A DNA stretch of 64,000 nucleotides. It comes from Chryseobacterium sp. MYb264. Lineage in GTDB: Bacteria; Bacteroidota; Bacteroidia; Flavobacteriales; Weeksellaceae. Below, piece after piece: positions 9,158 to 57,922 of the stretch; position 1 is the stretch's first letter, and every line of letters begins with the position of its first letter. The stretch spans positions 4,030,001-4,094,000 of the forward strand of contig NZ_CP142422.1 in the NCBI RefSeq assembly GCF_035974275.1, read 5' to 3'. The notes under the pieces were generated by a model. The model worked only from the letters and a program-made list of their open reading frames with translations, was not told the DNA's origin and did not search any database. The position numbers and the translations under genes are program-made.

Positions 9158-9247
9158 AAATTTTAGATAGAAATTTTGAATTTTAAATTACCGTTACTTT
9201 TTTAAAATAAAAAAAATCTAAAATCTAAAATCTAAAATCTAAAATTT
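9158..9247. repeat. Inverted-repeat element with AAAATCT heptamer array
   Basis: A perfect 11-bp inverted repeat (AAATTTTAGAT at 9158-9168 with its complement at 9237-9247) brackets about 68 bp. The right half is a tandem array of the heptamer AAAATCT, roughly four copies at 9213-9240. The element fills the whole gap between rpsC and rplP. It has the same plan (inverted ends, TAG-rich words, short tandem units) as the flanks of the four-helix-bundle genes at 29.5 and 56.2 kb but contains no gene. Confidence 0.7.
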
Positions 9248-9254
9248 AGAAATT

Positions 9255-29430: not shown

Positions 29431-29432
29431 TT

Positions 29433-30021
29433 GTGTTGGAGAGTAGGAGAGTGATAGGGTTTTAGAGTTTTTTTTGTTGGAGAATTGTAGAGTTTGAGAG
29501 TTGTGGAGTGATTTGTTGATATTTTTTCTATTTTAGTTAAAAATACACAGATGTCAACAATTAAATTTCATCAGGATTTAAAAGTTTATCAAAAATCTTT
29601 TGAAACTGCAATGATGATCTTCGAACTTTCAAAGTCTTTTCCAAAAGAGGAATTATATTCTTTAACAGATCAAATCAGAAGATCCTCACGATCTACCTCT
29701 GCAAATATCAGTGAAGCTTGGGGAAAAAGAAAATATGAAAAATCTTTTATCGCAAAACTCACCGATTCGGAAGGCGAAGCAAGAGAAACTCAGACTTGGG
29801 TACAGTTTGCTTTTGCCTGTAAATATATTAGCGAAGAACAGTTTATTAGTTTAAACAATCAATACAATCAAATAATTGGGATGTTGGTCAATATGATGAG
29901 TCAGTCACAAAGTTGGTGTACATTTTCCCCTAATAATAAGGAAGAAAAATAATTTTGCACTAAAACACTAAAACACTAAAACACTAAAACACTAAAACAC
30001 TCATACTCTCAAACCCAACAC
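29433..30021. mobile_element. Inverted-repeat element A carrying a four-helix-bundle gene
   Basis: The element fills the gap between two related hydrolase genes. Its left end reads GTGTTGG then GAGAGTAGGAG (29433-29449). The complement of its right end reads GTGTTGG (30015-30021) then GAGAGTATGAG (30000-30010). The inner right flank is an array of an 8-mer, ACTAAAAC, repeated about five times (29959-30002), whose complement GTTTTAGT resembles GGTTTTAG in the left flank. The single gene inside encodes a TIGR02436-type protein. The structure recalls rRNA intervening sequences, in which an S23-type gene lies inside a stem. Mobility is inferred. Confidence 0.6.
29551..29952 (+). CDS. Four-helix-bundle protein (S23/TIGR02436 type)
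   Basis: A 133-aa helical protein with the family core: QDLKVYQKS at the start, FPKEE near residue 30, QIRRSSRSTSANISEA near residues 42-57, and a long helical tail. Relatives are encoded in 23S rRNA intervening sequences of several bacteria and resemble the Avd protein of diversity-generating retroelements. Their molecular role is unclear. The gene sits inside inverted repeats between two citrulline/arginine-type hydrolase genes, and a divergent homologue at 56.2 kb has the same layout. The C-terminus has a short extra tail (SWCTFSPNNKEEK) compared with that copy. Confidence 0.85.
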   Translation: MSTIKFHQDLKVYQKSFETAMMIFELSKSFPKEELYSLTDQIRRSSRSTSANISEAWGKRKYEKSFIAKLTDSEGEARETQTWVQFAFACKYISEEQFISLNNQYNQIIGMLVNMMSQSQSWCTFSPNNKEEK

Positions 30022-53827: not shown

Positions 53828-54982
53828 ATGAATAAAACTTTCAAAATATATGCTGCAATTTTCATCATCGTTATGGTGATTCTGGCATTGCTTGAAGTTA
53901 ATAAAAAGGAGGTTGTAGATTGGCGAAAAAACTTTAATGTTACCCAAAAATCTCCTTTCGGGCTCTTTGTTTTTAATGAAGAAGTAAAAGGGCTTTTTAA
54001 GAATAAAATTATTAAAATAGATCAGTCTCCATTTGATTATTATAACGAACATCAGAAGGAAAAACACAATATTTTAGTCATTGAAAGTGATATTGACAGC
54101 GAATCCTGGTCGAAAATCTTAATTGAAGTTTCCAAAGGTTCAGATGCAATGATAATGGTTTCCGATATGCCGAAAGAAATTTCTGACAGCATCGGATATT
54201 ATGATTCCGAGATCTCATTTGAAGAACAAAATGTTTTAAAACTGACTGATAAAAAATTCCAAAATGACTTTATAAAACTGGATAAATTTCCCTCAGGCAG
54301 AGGTTTTACTTATATTAAACCCAATGTTGAAGTTTTGGGGAAAACAGTTGAAAAAAATAATCAGGATCAGGCTAATTTTATTAAAGTGAAATTCGGAAAA
54401 GGAAATGTGTATGTTCATAGCGAGCCACTTTTTATCACGAATTATTATTTATTAAAACCTGGAAATATAAAATATACGCAAGATGTTTTTTCTTATCTTG
54501 ATGATAAAGAAACGCTTTGGTTCGTTAAAGGAAAGACGAGTGAATCACGTTTTTTTATGAGGTTCATTCTTTCAAATCCAGCGTTGAAATATGCGTGGTG
54601 GGTCTTTTTAGGAGGATTGTTATTGTTTATTTTCTTTAATGCGAAACGTAAACAGCGTATTGTTCCAAAGATAGAACCGCTAAAGAATACCTCGGTAGAT
54701 TTTGTGAAAAGTATTGGGAATCTCTATCTTCAGGAAGGCGACTTTCATGATATGATGGCGAAAAAAGCACAGTATTTTCTGAATAAAGTAAGAATGGATT
54801 TGCTGATTGATACGCAAAATTTAGATGAAGAATTTGCAAAAAAGCTTCAGTTAAAAACCGGAAAACCGATCGAACTTATTCAGGAAGTGATTAACTTGAT
54901 TAAAAAAGGTCAGGATCCTTATGCGAGTGTGATGCAGGAAGATCTGGTTCGAATGAATAAAATTTTAGACGAAATCGTATAA
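53828..54982 (+). CDS. DUF4350 domain protein
   Basis: A 384-aa protein with an N-terminal membrane anchor (residues 7-22), an extracytoplasmic domain of about 220 residues resembling a GATase-like/DUF4350 fold, a second transmembrane helix (about 250-270, YAWWVFLGGLLLFIFF) and a cytoplasmic C-terminal helical region. Such proteins occur in the MoxR/DUF58 operon of Bacteroidota and Actinobacteria, with no established function. It starts 14 nt after the DUF4129 gene. Confidence 0.83.
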   Translation: MNKTFKIYAAIFIIVMVILALLEVNKKEVVDWRKNFNVTQKSPFGLFVFNEEVKGLFKNKIIKIDQSPFDYYNEHQKEKHNILVIESDIDSESWSKILIEVSKGSDAMIMVSDMPKEISDSIGYYDSEISFEEQNVLKLTDKKFQNDFIKLDKFPSGRGFTYIKPNVEVLGKTVEKNNQDQANFIKVKFGKGNVYVHSEPLFITNYYLLKPGNIKYTQDVFSYLDDKETLWFVKGKTSESRFFMRFILSNPALKYAWWVFLGGLLLFIFFNAKRKQRIVPKIEPLKNTSVDFVKSIGNLYLQEGDFHDMMAKKAQYFLNKVRMDLLIDTQNLDEEFAKKLQLKTGKPIELIQEVINLIKKGQDPYASVMQEDLVRMNKILDEIV

Positions 54983-54984
54983 TA

Positions 54985-55090
54985 ATGTAACAATATAATA
55001 ATGTAAAAATGTAACAATCTTGTTGTCATGCCGAGTAAAAGGAGTAACCCAATTGGTAAATTGTTATATTGATTCACTGTTAAATTAATA
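54985..55090. repeat. ORF-less inverted-repeat element between DUF4350 and moxR genes
   Basis: CAATATAATAAT at 54991-55002 pairs with ATTGTTATATTG at 55060-55071 (11 of 12). TGTAACAAT words recur within the left arm (54986-54994 and 55010-55018). The middle holds 'gtcatgccgagtaaaagg', which looks like a decayed GTCATGCCGAG-type dispersed repeat. It fills the whole 114-bp gap between two otherwise tightly packed operon genes. Confidence 0.55.
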
Positions 55091-55096
55091 ATTAAT

Positions 55097-56128
55097 ATGG
55101 AAAACTTTGATAACCCCAATATAGAAGATCAGAATTCTATTCAACTCAATAAGAAAGATGATGAATTTCAGTCAAGAATTGATATGATTGAACTTCGCTC
55201 GAGTTTAGAGAAAGTAAAAACTGAAATCGCAAAAGTAATTGTTGGTCAGGAAAATATGGTCGAGCATCTTTTGGCAGCACTTTTATCGAACGGACATGTT
55301 CTGATTGAAGGTGTTCCTGGAGTTGCAAAGACGATTACAGCAAAATTACTAGCGAAAACGATTGATGTAGGGTTCAGCAGAATACAGTTTACGCCAGACT
55401 TGATGCCTTCTGATATTCTGGGTACCTCAATTTTTAACGTGAAAAATTCTGAGTTTGAATTTAAAAAAGGGCCTATTTTCTCCAATTTTATTTTGATTGA
55501 TGAGATCAACAGATCACCTGCAAAAACTCAGGCTGCCTTATTTGAAGTTATGGAAGAGCGCCAGATCACGATGGATGGAATGCGATATATCATGGAAGAA
55601 CCTTTCCTGGTTGTAGCAACTCAAAACCCAATCGAGCATGAAGGAACGTACAGGCTTCCGGAAGCGCAGCTTGACCGTTTCTTGTTTAAAATAAACGTAG
55701 GTTATCCTAATCTTGAGCAGGAAATTGCCATTATCAAAAATCAACACGAAAGCAAGAAAGAGGACAAAACAGAAGTGGTGAATCGCGTGATCTCTGCACA
55801 GCAACTTAAAAGTTATCAACAATTGGTCAAGGAAATTGTTGTTGAATCTCAGTTGATGGAATATATTGCAAAAATTATCATTAATACAAGAGAAAATCAG
55901 TTCTTGTATTTAGGAGCTTCGCCAAGAGCAAGTTTAGCATTATTAACAGCATCAAAAGCTTTTGCAGCGTTAAGAGCCAGAGATTTTGTTACACCGGAAG
56001 ATATTAAAGAAGCAAGTTATGCCGTCTTAAGACACAGAGTAATCGTATCGCCGGAAAGAGAAATGGAAGGCTTAACAGCAGACGAAATTATCAGACAGAT
56101 TTTAGAGGGAATAGAAATTCCTAGATAG
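55097..56128 (+). CDS. MoxR-family AAA+ ATPase
   Basis: A 343-aa cytoplasmic AAA+ chaperone-like ATPase. It has Walker A GVPGVAKTITAK (residues about 74-85), Walker B LIDEINRSPAKTQ (about 135-147) and the QNPIEHEGTYRLPEAQLDRF sensor/arginine-finger segment. MoxR ATPases normally act with the vWA/DUF58 protein encoded next door to activate or assemble a client. Here the DUF58 gene is displaced by about 470 bp by a four-helix-bundle element. Confidence 0.92.
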   Translation: MENFDNPNIEDQNSIQLNKKDDEFQSRIDMIELRSSLEKVKTEIAKVIVGQENMVEHLLAALLSNGHVLIEGVPGVAKTITAKLLAKTIDVGFSRIQFTPDLMPSDILGTSIFNVKNSEFEFKKGPIFSNFILIDEINRSPAKTQAALFEVMEERQITMDGMRYIMEEPFLVVATQNPIEHEGTYRLPEAQLDRFLFKINVGYPNLEQEIAIIKNQHESKKEDKTEVVNRVISAQQLKSYQQLVKEIVVESQLMEYIAKIIINTRENQFLYLGASPRASLALLTASKAFAALRARDFVTPEDIKEASYAVLRHRVIVSPEREMEGLTADEIIRQILEGIEIPR

Positions 56129-56142
56129 GTAGTAGGAGTCAG

Positions 56143-56593
56143 GTAGCAGGTAAGAGGTTTTAGGTTATAGTTTGCAATTCGGTGTTTTAAAATTTTATAT
56201 ATGGCTAATTTTAAAGAACTTTTAGTTTGGCAAAAATCTATTGATTTTGTAACCGAAATCTACAGGATAACTGATACCTTTCCTAAAGATGAAACCTTTG
56301 GCTTAAGATCACAAGTAAGAAGAGCTTCGGTTTCGATTCCATCCAATATTGCGGAAGGAAATTCCAGAAGAAGCAAACCTGATTATTTGCAGTTTTTAAA
56401 AATTTCAAGAGGGAGCTGTGCAGAGGTTGAAACTCAATTAATTATTTCTAAGAACCTCAAATTTTTAAAGGAAGAAGAATATTTGAAATTAAATAATGAT
56501 ATTATCGAAATTTCGAAAATGCTAAACGGACTTATTAATTCTCTAAAATAAACGCTCACAAAAACTGCAACCTAAAAACTACGATCTGCAACC
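56143..56593. mobile_element. Inverted-repeat element B carrying a four-helix-bundle gene
   Basis: The left flank reads GGTAGCAG (56143-56150), GTTTTAGGTT (56158-56167), AGTTT (56170-56174). The complement of the right flank reads GGTTGCAG (56586-56593), GTTTTTAGGTT (56569-56579), AGTTT (56562-56566), in the same order and with the same spacing. These imperfect inverted repeats closely enclose a TIGR02436-type gene and insert it between moxR and the DUF58 gene. The plan matches element A at 29.4-30.0 kb, though the repeat sequence differs apart from the shared word GGTTTTAG. Confidence 0.62.
56201..56551 (+). CDS. Four-helix-bundle protein (S23/TIGR02436 type)
   Basis: A 116-aa helical protein with the full family pattern: KELLVWQKSIDF at residues 4-15, TFPKDETFGLRSQVRRASVSIPSNIAEG at about 27-54 (in part), then two further amphipathic helices. 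It is closer to the family consensus than the 29.5-kb copy. It lies between the moxR and DUF58 genes inside inverted repeats, which suggests it arrived as part of an insertion rather than belonging to the operon. The function of the family is not established. Confidence 0.88.
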   Translation: MANFKELLVWQKSIDFVTEIYRITDTFPKDETFGLRSQVRRASVSIPSNIAEGNSRRSKPDYLQFLKISRGSCAEVETQLIISKNLKFLKEEEYLKLNNDIIEISKMLNGLINSLK

Positions 56594-56599
56594 TAATAA

Positions 56600-57922
56600 A
56601 TGAAAAACTTATACATCAATACCCGTTTTTTTTTCGCGCTCATCGGAGTGGGGATTTTATATGTCTTTGCATTTTTCTTCCCTTTTTTGATGTGGGCAGC
56701 TCATATCGTTTTGCTGTTATGTTTTTTGGCAGCGATGGTGGATTATTTACTTTTATTTAATCAAAAGGATGCGGTTTTAGCCCAACGGATTTTACCTGAA
56801 AAATTGTCCAATGGTGACGAAAATCCGGTGAAAGTTGATGTTAAAAATAATTACGGTTTTAAGATCAATGTTAAAATTATCGATGAAATTCCGTTTCAGT
56901 TTCAGAAAAGAGATTTTGTGATTACAAAACAAATCGATTCCGGTAAGAATACGTATTTCCAATATATTTTAGAACCTAAAGAAAGAGGCGAATATAATTT
57001 CGGGAGTTTAAATGTGTACGCTGAATCACCGATTGGCTTGGTTTCCAAAAGATTCAGGTTTCAGAAGGATGCGAGTTTGGCTTCTTATCCGTCTTTTATT
57101 CATCTTCGAAAGTATGAATTGATGGCTGTTCAGAGCGAATTTCTTTTAGGCGGAATCAAGAAAATCCGCAAATTAGGTCACACGATGGAATTTGAGCAAA
57201 TCAAAGAGTATGTTCCGGGTGACGACATCAGAACCATCAACTGGAAAGCGACTTCCAAGACAAACCGCTTGATGGTAAACCAGTTTCAGGATGAAAAATC
57301 ACAACGTATTTTTATGCTGATCGATACAGGAAGAACGATGAAAATGCCTTTCAAAGGATTGAGTTTGCTGGATTATTCCATCAATGCAGCCATGGCACTT
57401 TCACATATTATTCTGAAGAAAGGCGACCGTGCCGGAATGATGACCTTCTCTAAGAAAACAGAAAATAAAATTGCGGCGGAAAACAAATCGGGACAATTGA
57501 AGAAAATTTCTGAGGCGCTTTATAATATTAATACCAATTTTTTTGAAAGTGATTTCAACAGATTGTATCAGGATGTGAAATATTCGATCAATCAGAGAAG
57601 TTTGATTTTGCTTTTTACCAATTTTGAAACATTAGATGGTTTAAACCGCCAGTTAAAATACCTTCGCGGAATTGCCAAAAACCATTTATTGGTGGTTGTT
57701 TTCTTTAAAAATGCAGAACTACAGACTTTGATTCATCAGAACCCTGAAAGTATGCAAGGGATTTATGATGAAATTATTGCTGAAAAATTTGAGTTTGAGA
57801 AAAAATTAATTATTCAGGAACTTCGCAAATACGGGATTTATACGGTGTACACACTTCCTGAAAATTTGAATATCGATGTTATCAATAAATATCTGGAGAT
57901 AAAAGCGAGAGGAATTTTATAG
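56600..57922 (+). CDS. DUF58 domain protein (vWA-like)
   Basis: A 440-aa protein with two N-terminal transmembrane helices (about residues 8-28 and 31-50), an extracellular-type beta domain, and a cytoplasmic DUF58/vWA-like domain. The domain shows VPGDDIRTINWKATSKTNRL near residues 209-228 and a metal-site-like DTGRTM (DxSxS variant) near 247. DUF58 proteins are the standard partners of MoxR ATPases. It is the last gene of the operon; seven GCAATAA heptamers follow the stop. Confidence 0.9.
   Translation: MKNLYINTRFFFALIGVGILYVFAFFFPFLMWAAHIVLLLCFLAAMVDYLLLFNQKDAVLAQRILPEKLSNGDENPVKVDVKNNYGFKINVKIIDEIPFQFQKRDFVITKQIDSGKNTYFQYILEPKERGEYNFGSLNVYAESPIGLVSKRFRFQKDASLASYPSFIHLRKYELMAVQSEFLLGGIKKIRKLGHTMEFEQIKEYVPGDDIRTINWKATSKTNRLMVNQFQDEKSQRIFMLIDTGRTMKMPFKGLSLLDYSINAAMALSHIILKKGDRAGMMTFSKKTENKIAAENKSGQLKKISEALYNINTNFFESDFNRLYQDVKYSINQRSLILLFTNFETLDGLNRQLKYLRGIAKNHLLVVVFFKNAELQTLIHQNPESMQGIYDEIIAEKFEFEKKLIIQELRKYGIYTVYTLPENLNIDVINKYLEIKARGIL

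Follow-up and report, generated by a model that had tools for sequence, protein, structure and literature searches.

Inverted heptad arrays around S23/IVP genes: a candidate intervening-sequence-type element between moxR and DUF58 and at other bacterial gene junctions

Between the moxR and DUF58 genes of Chryseobacterium sp. MYb264 lies a small gene for a four-helix-bundle protein of the S23/IVP type, whose left and right flanks resemble inverted versions of one another. The locus raises the question of what such a gene is doing between two protein genes, and whether its flanks belong to it. The window, by which we mean the whole 64,000-nucleotide stretch of DNA that was analysed, contains the locus and related features.

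The locus between moxR and DUF58

29431..30018, plus strand: another element of this kind, element A, both arms of period 8; gene PF05635, E 2.1e-33
54983..55096, no strand assigned: period-8 hairpin lacking an IVP, AATGTAAC-like word, in the DUF4350-moxR gap; word shared with the arms of L011
55097..56128, plus strand: moxR (AAA_3 ATPase); PF07726, E 1.6e-62
56129..56170, plus strand: left arm, six heptads in tandem, all with AG at the end; read from the sequence
56201..56551, plus strand: IVP / S23-type four-helix-bundle protein, 116 aa; PF05635, E 7.5e-44
56565..56596, minus strand: right arm, five CT-cored units at 7-nt spacing, inverse of the left; read from the sequence
56600..57922, plus strand: DUF58 gene, the next gene in the same direction; PF01882, E 8.6e-19

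The IVP encoded at 56201-56551 matched the PDB relatives 2gsc (E 3.6e-26) and 2rld (E 1e-9), each of which has five chains, and the available part of PMC4990558 describes the Xanthomonas relative 2gsc as a toroidal homopentamer. Based on these relatives, the protein is probably a ring-forming homopentamer. PF05635 and, below its family cut-off, PF22296 were the only families matched. The median pairwise dN/dS at this site was 0.08 (20 orthologues, 177 usable pairs), and medians of 0.06-0.11 at five sites indicated purifying selection on IVPs.

The TAG stop codon of moxR directly abuts the left array, whose units in order are GTAGTAG GAGTCAG GTAGCAG GTAAGAG GTTTTAG GTTATAG (six, or seven counting the stop codon), and none of the units at this locus has a G tract of three or more. 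Read on the minus strand, the right arm is TTAG GTTGCAG ATCGTAG TTTTTAG GTTGCAG, an AG chain of five. Self-match at lag 7 in a 28-nt window was 0.71 for the left arm and 0.57 for the right; as the latter is under the 0.6 threshold used below, the locus falls outside the 68 loci counted there as periodic on both sides. The earlier note on this DNA had overlooked the 7-nt period, and had instead described three words of the left flank recurring inverted on the right in the same order and spacing. Two of these, TTTTAGGTT and AGTTT, do recur exactly, and the third, GGTAGCAG, recurs with one mismatch as GGTTGCAG.

A gapless alignment of 33 nt between the left arm and the reverse-complemented right arm scored 26, compared to a mean of 18.7 in 500 dinucleotide shuffles (p = 0.016), which upheld the proposal that the flanks are more self-complementary than shuffled sequence. 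By itself the arm match at this locus is moderately beyond chance, and its strength rests on the set of loci described below. In element A (left arm 29431-29471, IVP gene 29551-29952, right arm 29978-30018) the arm score was 42, which none of 500 shuffles reached. The region 54900-57000 gave no Rfam match at the gathering threshold, and the element lies between protein genes rather than inside a 23S rRNA gene. Neither a transposase domain nor a reverse transcriptase was detected in the six window proteins scanned, the neighbours being moxR, DUF58, DUF4350 and OsmC.

Arms, period and word across loci

Matched inverted flanks around a four-helix-bundle gene proved to be real and wider than first described. 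This 5.23-Mb genome has 12 PF05635 genes, and the analysis covered 121 loci from several phyla. A PF05635 gene was found in 96 of 98 genus genomes and, above the family cut-off, in 220 of 296 genomes of the phylum. We scored arms by aligning the left flank to the reverse complement of the right, with swaps between different sites as the control. The genus set of 91 loci (the genome's own 12 and others among the best matches) was reduced to 90 by dropping L041, which has an internal stop. In these 90 loci matched arms averaged 29.2 and the 7,026 swaps 17.0, and 7-mers shared between the flanks numbered 8.3 in inverted and 2.6 in direct orientation. The mean arm score of control genes in a sample of the MYb264 genome was 18.4 (379 genes, including the window's two IVP genes). 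At some sites the signal was weak, as at recJ|nadD, where 3 of 13 loci had p < 0.05.

Matched arms scored 28.7 and swapped arms 16.6 among 66 broadly sampled Bacteroidota loci, 23 of which lay above the 99th percentile of swaps. The corresponding values were 33.6 and 16.6, with 18 of 43 loci above that percentile, in a wider set from Firmicutes, Planctomycetota, Chloroflexota, candidate phyla and Bacteroidota that includes some relatives of the genus. Within one site, own arms matched no better than those of other genomes (p 0.48 by 7-mers, p 0.05 by alignment), and overall this comparison did not support concerted evolution between the arms of a site. At sites 4 and 6, words observed by eye differed between species on both arms.

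The 121-locus set joined genus, phylum and distant bacteria. Its 37 distant loci were picked from 80, leaving out congeners and close relatives and keeping near-copies; since near-copies were kept, key counts were repeated on 103 loci after removal of proteins more than 0.8 similar. Because similarity to one protein guided the choice of distant loci and the broad loci came from the best-scoring matches, lower-scoring IVP branches are under-sampled.

Self-match in left and right flanks peaked at lags 7 and 14, and then at 8 (18 site representatives and 37 distant loci). A periodic left arm, defined by a self-match of 60% or more over a 28-nt window and a best lag of 7 or 8, was present at 93 of 121 loci, or at 97 if periods 5-9 were counted. 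Both flanks reached 60% at lag 7 or 8 in 68 of the 121 IVP loci compared with 4 of 318 control genes, the latter taken from the MYb264 genome alone and including none of its 12 IVP genes. The two arms had the same period at 64 of these 68 loci when judged at 7 or 8 only, and at 62 when periods 5-9 competed. After deduplication, 58 of 103 loci were periodic on both flanks and 54 shared a period; within the MYb264 genome itself, both flanks were periodic at 5 of the 12 IVP genes.

The commonest conserved dinucleotide was AG, found in 68 of the 93 periodic left arms, and several words of this genome lack an AG core. Polarity was mostly fixed: of the 97 periodic left arms, 81 had more G than C, and the purine fraction was 0.63 in left and 0.41 in right arms. 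On each strand a purine-rich array lies toward the 5' end, as expected of terminal recognition sites. A G-quadruplex was rejected as the general cause of the arrays, as many words have no G tract.

The number of units was counted as the longest strict run of AG at a spacing of 7 or 8, without preselection of loci. Left arms of exactly five units occurred at 33 of 121 loci (four units 21, six 12, one to three 44) and right arms of exactly five at 31 (four 16, six 6, one to three 61). The longest chain in mononucleotide shuffles (20 per flank; 2,420 left and 2,420 right) was four. Five remained a separate peak among the 103 deduplicated loci, at 24 left arms (four 17, six 12) and 21 right arms (four 13, six 5). 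Right-arm chains of two were about as common as five in the full set (29 of 121) and commoner after deduplication (28 of 103), so that deduplication and the right-arm background soften the peak. Five was the commonest length in the 37 distant loci (10 left, 10 right) and the 66 Bacteroidota loci (22 and 19). Representatives of the 18 genus sites lacked the peak (five units in 1 left and 2 right arms), and in the MYb264 genome AG chains of four or more occurred only at L001 and L005. The frequent count of five words on each side, alongside the five-membered rings of solved relatives, suggests that the arrays may be binding sites of the protein itself.

The suggestion that each protein tends toward its own repeat set was supported. 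Arm-word similarity rose with protein similarity (Mantel r 0.195; 93 elements, pairs below 0.8 similarity), and none of 2,000 permutations was as high. The nearest protein relative below 0.8 similarity had the same period in 84% of cases, compared to 58% when permuted. On a protein tree of 106 elements, in which many forks were unresolved and some branches long, the 7- or 8-nt label required 13 changes, the mean of shuffled labels being 26 and 0 of 500 shuffles being as low. Some of the rows in these tests are orthologous sites, and near-copies inflate the Mantel and tree statistics. The correlation would fit recognition by the protein, and it would also fit joint inheritance of protein and arms as a unit, which by itself would yield the covariation.

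Other members of the fold family and some individual loci departed from this pattern. Heptad arms on both sides were present in none of four bAvd loci, one of which had a periodic left flank. Ten cyanobacterial plasmid loci comprised four with strong heptad inverted repeats, one with a shorter repeat and five with weak or no repeats. On a Pseudanabaena plasmid (L429), an IVP gene between cas6 and cas4 has about 14 AAAGCTA-like heptads on its left and a related array, AAAAGCC, on its right in direct rather than inverted orientation. One IVP of the MYb264 genome (L008, C1:2394165-2397461) is flanked by a longer repeated block, unlike the other copies, and its flanks share 37 direct and 5 inverted 7-mers.

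Sites, their history and hairpins without an IVP

The 91 genus loci fall into 18 distinct sites, recognised by both flanking genes. Their representatives lie between moxR|DUF58, purC|purF, recJ|nadD, groES|groEL, carA|carB, thiolase|acyl-CoA dehydrogenase, fadB|fadA, trpE|trpG, murE|mraY, sufA|sufB, coaD|TRIC and others, the names being read from translations except for the profile-scanned moxR and DUF58. The upstream gene, the IVP and the downstream gene were all co-directional at 86 of the 104 loci that were resolved for neighbour direction (17 of 121 were not). Among the 154 gaps of 40-250 bp sampled from the MYb264 genome, by comparison, 95 lay between co-directional genes.

The DUF58 gene was present in 98 of 98 genus genomes, and we compared 97 moxR|DUF58 junctions after leaving out G092, in which the DUF58 frame is split; four duplicate loci stood outside the tally. 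The IVP was classed as intact in 25 of the junctions and as a remnant in 10. A hairpin lacking an IVP occupied 9 junctions and another gene 5; a gap of at most 10 nt was present in 4 and another short gap in 44. The intact class was assigned by coverage, and the frame was open over 105 aa or more in 24 of its 25 members. The moxR stop was TAG in all 25 genomes with an intact IVP and TAA in all four with a gap of at most 10 nt.

The earlier note read the locus as an insertion. Relative to the four congeners with a gap of at most 10 nt it is an insert, and that much of the reading stood. A fresh insertion was not supported, since the same gene, intact or as a remnant, occupies the same site in 35 of the 97 genus genomes, MYb264 included. 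The earlier note had also held that outgroups with the gene at this site would speak against its reading, and Epilithonimonas (L221) and Kaistella (L224) do carry the gene there, judged by the flanks. This carriage across the genus, Epilithonimonas and Kaistella points to a long presence of the element between moxR and DUF58, through inheritance and frequent loss or through recurrent insertion or exchange. On the gene tree, which is poorly resolved, the distribution of intact copies required at least 20 changes, 12 of them forced by well-supported branches, and the intact label was no more clustered than expected by chance (57 of 500 shuffles as low).

Filled and unfilled states were compared by eye at moxR|DUF58, sufA|sufB, coaD|TRIC and murE|mraY. 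In 30 genomes each, the last three sites showed both IVP copies and hairpin-like gaps without IVP, and among these three only murE|mraY had nearly empty gaps of 10-20 nt. The A/T-rich gaps make the element ends ambiguous, so that no target duplication was resolved at the four sites. A TA duplication (TA/GG...CC/TAAAAAATG) looked possible at moxR|DUF58 and, given the ambiguous ends, is not claimed. The fadB|fadA site carried three dissimilar IVPs with three arm words in three genomes (L004, L165 and L186), a diversity that suggests replacement or repeated insertion.

A 464-kb sample of the MYb264 genome contained seven hairpins of period 7 or 8 that lacked an IVP, in gaps of 40-250 bp. Together with three more, they made up ten hairpins, of which five carried the word of a resident IVP, four matching L011 and one L005, each with 0 of 1,000 draws of foreign arms as good. 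Protein-less copies that share the repeat, as in RAYT/REP systems, are present in this genome. The hairpin at 54983-55096, next to moxR, is one that matched L011, another IVP of the same genome, with a score of 53 compared to 23.7 for foreign arms (0 of 1,000 draws). The advantage of own over foreign arms for random 110-mers of this genome was only 1.45. The remaining five of the ten matched no resident IVP beyond foreign arms (p 0.12-0.83). The word of the moxR|DUF58 element was best matched by the hairpin L139, which was not beyond foreign arms (p 0.12). At window positions 9158-9254 there is a period-7 hairpin without IVP, with a TTTAGAT-like word and co-directional neighbours, which matched no resident IVP beyond foreign arms.

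What the arrays may be

We put at about one half the probability that these loci are a widespread intervening-sequence-type element, whose arms are candidate recognition sites of the encoded pentamer and some of whose hairpins are satellites. The element would consist of an S23/IVP gene and two inverted heptad or octad arrays set between co-directional genes, and it would presumably be expressed along with the flanking genes, a co-transcription that we infer from the gene order. The arrays would most likely be recognition sites of a homopentamer, with about five often AG-cored words per array and one word per subunit, the latter suggested by the coincidence of the five-unit peak with five-chain relatives. 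The sites could be recognised as RNA or as single-stranded or duplex DNA. By binding at both ends, the protein would define and maintain the element, some of the hairpins without IVP would be satellites using the resident protein, and past mobility may have depended on help from host enzymes. Against this reading stand the missing five-unit peak in the genus, the sub-threshold right arm of the moxR|DUF58 locus itself, the five of ten hairpins without a match and the weak or missing arms of five of ten cyanobacterial plasmid loci. So do the background of short chains under the five-unit peak, the six units of the left arm at moxR|DUF58, the AG core conserved in 68 of 93 periodic left arms, own arms that match no better than others within one site, co-inheritance as another source of the covariation and, as regards mobility, a transposase not seen and a target duplication not resolved.

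The closest known arrangement is the intervening sequence of 23S rRNA genes, for instance in Coxiella and Leptospira, in which the same protein family lies inside a loop closed by terminal inverted repeats. According to the available part of PMC4990558, the Coxiella element is about 0.43-0.44 kb in length and suspected of mobility, and its terminal repeats form a 28-bp stem from which RNase III excises the S23-coding intervening sequence. In contrast to it, the moxR|DUF58-type element lies between protein genes and has arms made of arrays of 7- or 8-nt words that vary by site. The Coxiella case favours the best-surviving alternative, an unlikely one in our judgement, in which the arms matter only as a transcript stem cut by RNase III, with the protein as a passenger. 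When folded to minimum energy, the moxR|DUF58 element does pair its arms, and RNA duplexes of own arms were more stable than those of swapped arms (-49.0 and -35.1 kcal/mol, respectively), with 23 of 121 loci below the first percentile of swaps. However, the fold z-score at moxR|DUF58 was only -1.17, and a stem requires neither a 7- or 8-nt period nor a period that tracks the protein lineage. In addition, sense-strand mismatches at 85 loci comprised 93 of G.U type and 143 of A.C type; with no G.U enrichment, conservation of pairing in the transcript is not apparent. The idea that G.U pairs would reveal selection for a stem in the RNA was rejected, the sign being the opposite of that expected.

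Next in order, and improbable, is a resident autoregulator: a host-adapted, non-mobile RNA-binding ring that would control its operon through the left array in the manner of TRAP. The latter is an 11-mer that binds 11 (G/U)AG repeats (PMC4027176, in its available part), and the likeness, a ring protein matched one-to-one to NAG-type repeats (11 and 11), is a resemblance in possible working. The IVP elements differ from TRAP in their PF05635 protein, their spacing of 7-8 nt and their arrays in inverted pairs. Such a regulator would be in keeping with the co-directional setting, the strong purifying selection on the protein and the purine-rich sense-strand arrays that precede the gene. It fits poorly with the patchy occurrence at one site (25 intact genes and 10 remnants among 97 junctions, at least 20 changes and clustering at chance level), with the differing operons, and with the differing proteins at fadB|fadA. 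Nor does RNA regulation explain the array on the antisense strand of the right arm.

The arms also recall intergenic heptamer repeats, which likewise are tandem 7-nt words. As far as its text was available, PMC4692102 describes GGGAATC repeats in Xanthomonas as abundant and often in inverted pairs (70 and 75 such pairs in two genomes), with a preference for gaps between aligned ORFs and for four units, the latter read as a G-quadruplex; the GGGGA(C/T)T heptamers of Nostoc are abundant and seldom paired. TAACTGA repeats are described in the accessible text of PMC4679880 from Beggiatoaceae, Cyanobacteria and Bacteroidetes, with S1, Csp and Csr as candidate binders. Unlike G-quadruplex heptamers, many IVP-arm words are free of G tracts, and an AG core is missing from GGGAATC. 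A preference for four units could come from four full heptads and a fifth core, a fence-post difference. The main text of neither paper contains the terms S23 or helix bundle, and the parts available give no confirmed binding partner for heptamer repeats.

The least probable alternative is that slippage and template switching at quasi-palindromes make heptad hairpins that IVP genes merely tolerate: it is favoured by arms that are degenerate tandem repeats, by the hairpin-like gaps without IVP at the same places in other species, by the seven such hairpins of the MYb264 genome and by the Xanthomonas and Nostoc heptamers, and it is opposed by the enrichment of periodic flanks at IVP genes (68 of 121, compared to 4 of 318 other genes), by the correlation of period and word with the protein, and by a single period of 7 or 8 across several phyla and a five-unit peak, neither of which is expected from slippage.

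RAYT/REP and MITE systems also combine protein-carrying copies with protein-less hairpins that bear the same repeat. The IVP elements differ from them in having no transposase domain, in a word that varies by site and in showing no resolved target duplication; the kinship to RAYT and REP proposed in the earlier note is therefore a loose analogy only, the arms being degenerate heptads rather than one fixed palindrome. Avd/bAvd proteins of diversity-generating retroelements have a homologous fold: the available part of PMC10053308 relates PF05635 (2GSC) to Avd (4DWL), and PF22296 matched the moxR|DUF58 protein below its cut-off. The moxR|DUF58 locus is unlike such a retroelement in that no reverse transcriptase was present in the scanned window proteins and that bAvd loci lack paired arms.

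Beyond the recognition of its own arms by the encoded pentamer, a broader and less probable proposal is that S23/IVP pentamers in general read heptad or octad arrays, with one word per subunit, a spacing set by the ring and a word particular to each lineage. Many intergenic heptamer arrays of Bacteroidota, Cyanobacteria and others would then be putative sites or satellites of these proteins, in a class linking 23S rRNA intervening sequences, S23 proteins and heptamer repeats. Heptamer repeats and 23S rRNA intervening sequences are known separately; no paper joining S23/IVP genes with heptamer arrays was found in a search that left subscription journals and preprints mostly or wholly outside. 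The five-fold ring, the five-word arrays and the lineage correlation would turn three open questions, namely the origin of the 23S rRNA intervening sequences (called unclear in the literature), the S23 proteins and the heptamer repeats, into a single binding experiment. If mobile, the element would make its home within core operons, groESL, carAB and the murE-mraY region among them.

Two observations concern other small genes beside such arrays. In the moxR-DUF58 gaps of G073 and G008 (L043 and L057), a different small gene, whose product is apparently a membrane protein, lies behind the left heptad arm, and in L043 it stands beside an N-terminal remnant of the IVP; arms may host other cargo. 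At L144:17035-17487, two adjoining period-8 hairpins with the word of the L011 IVP have a small ORF of 85 aa between them.
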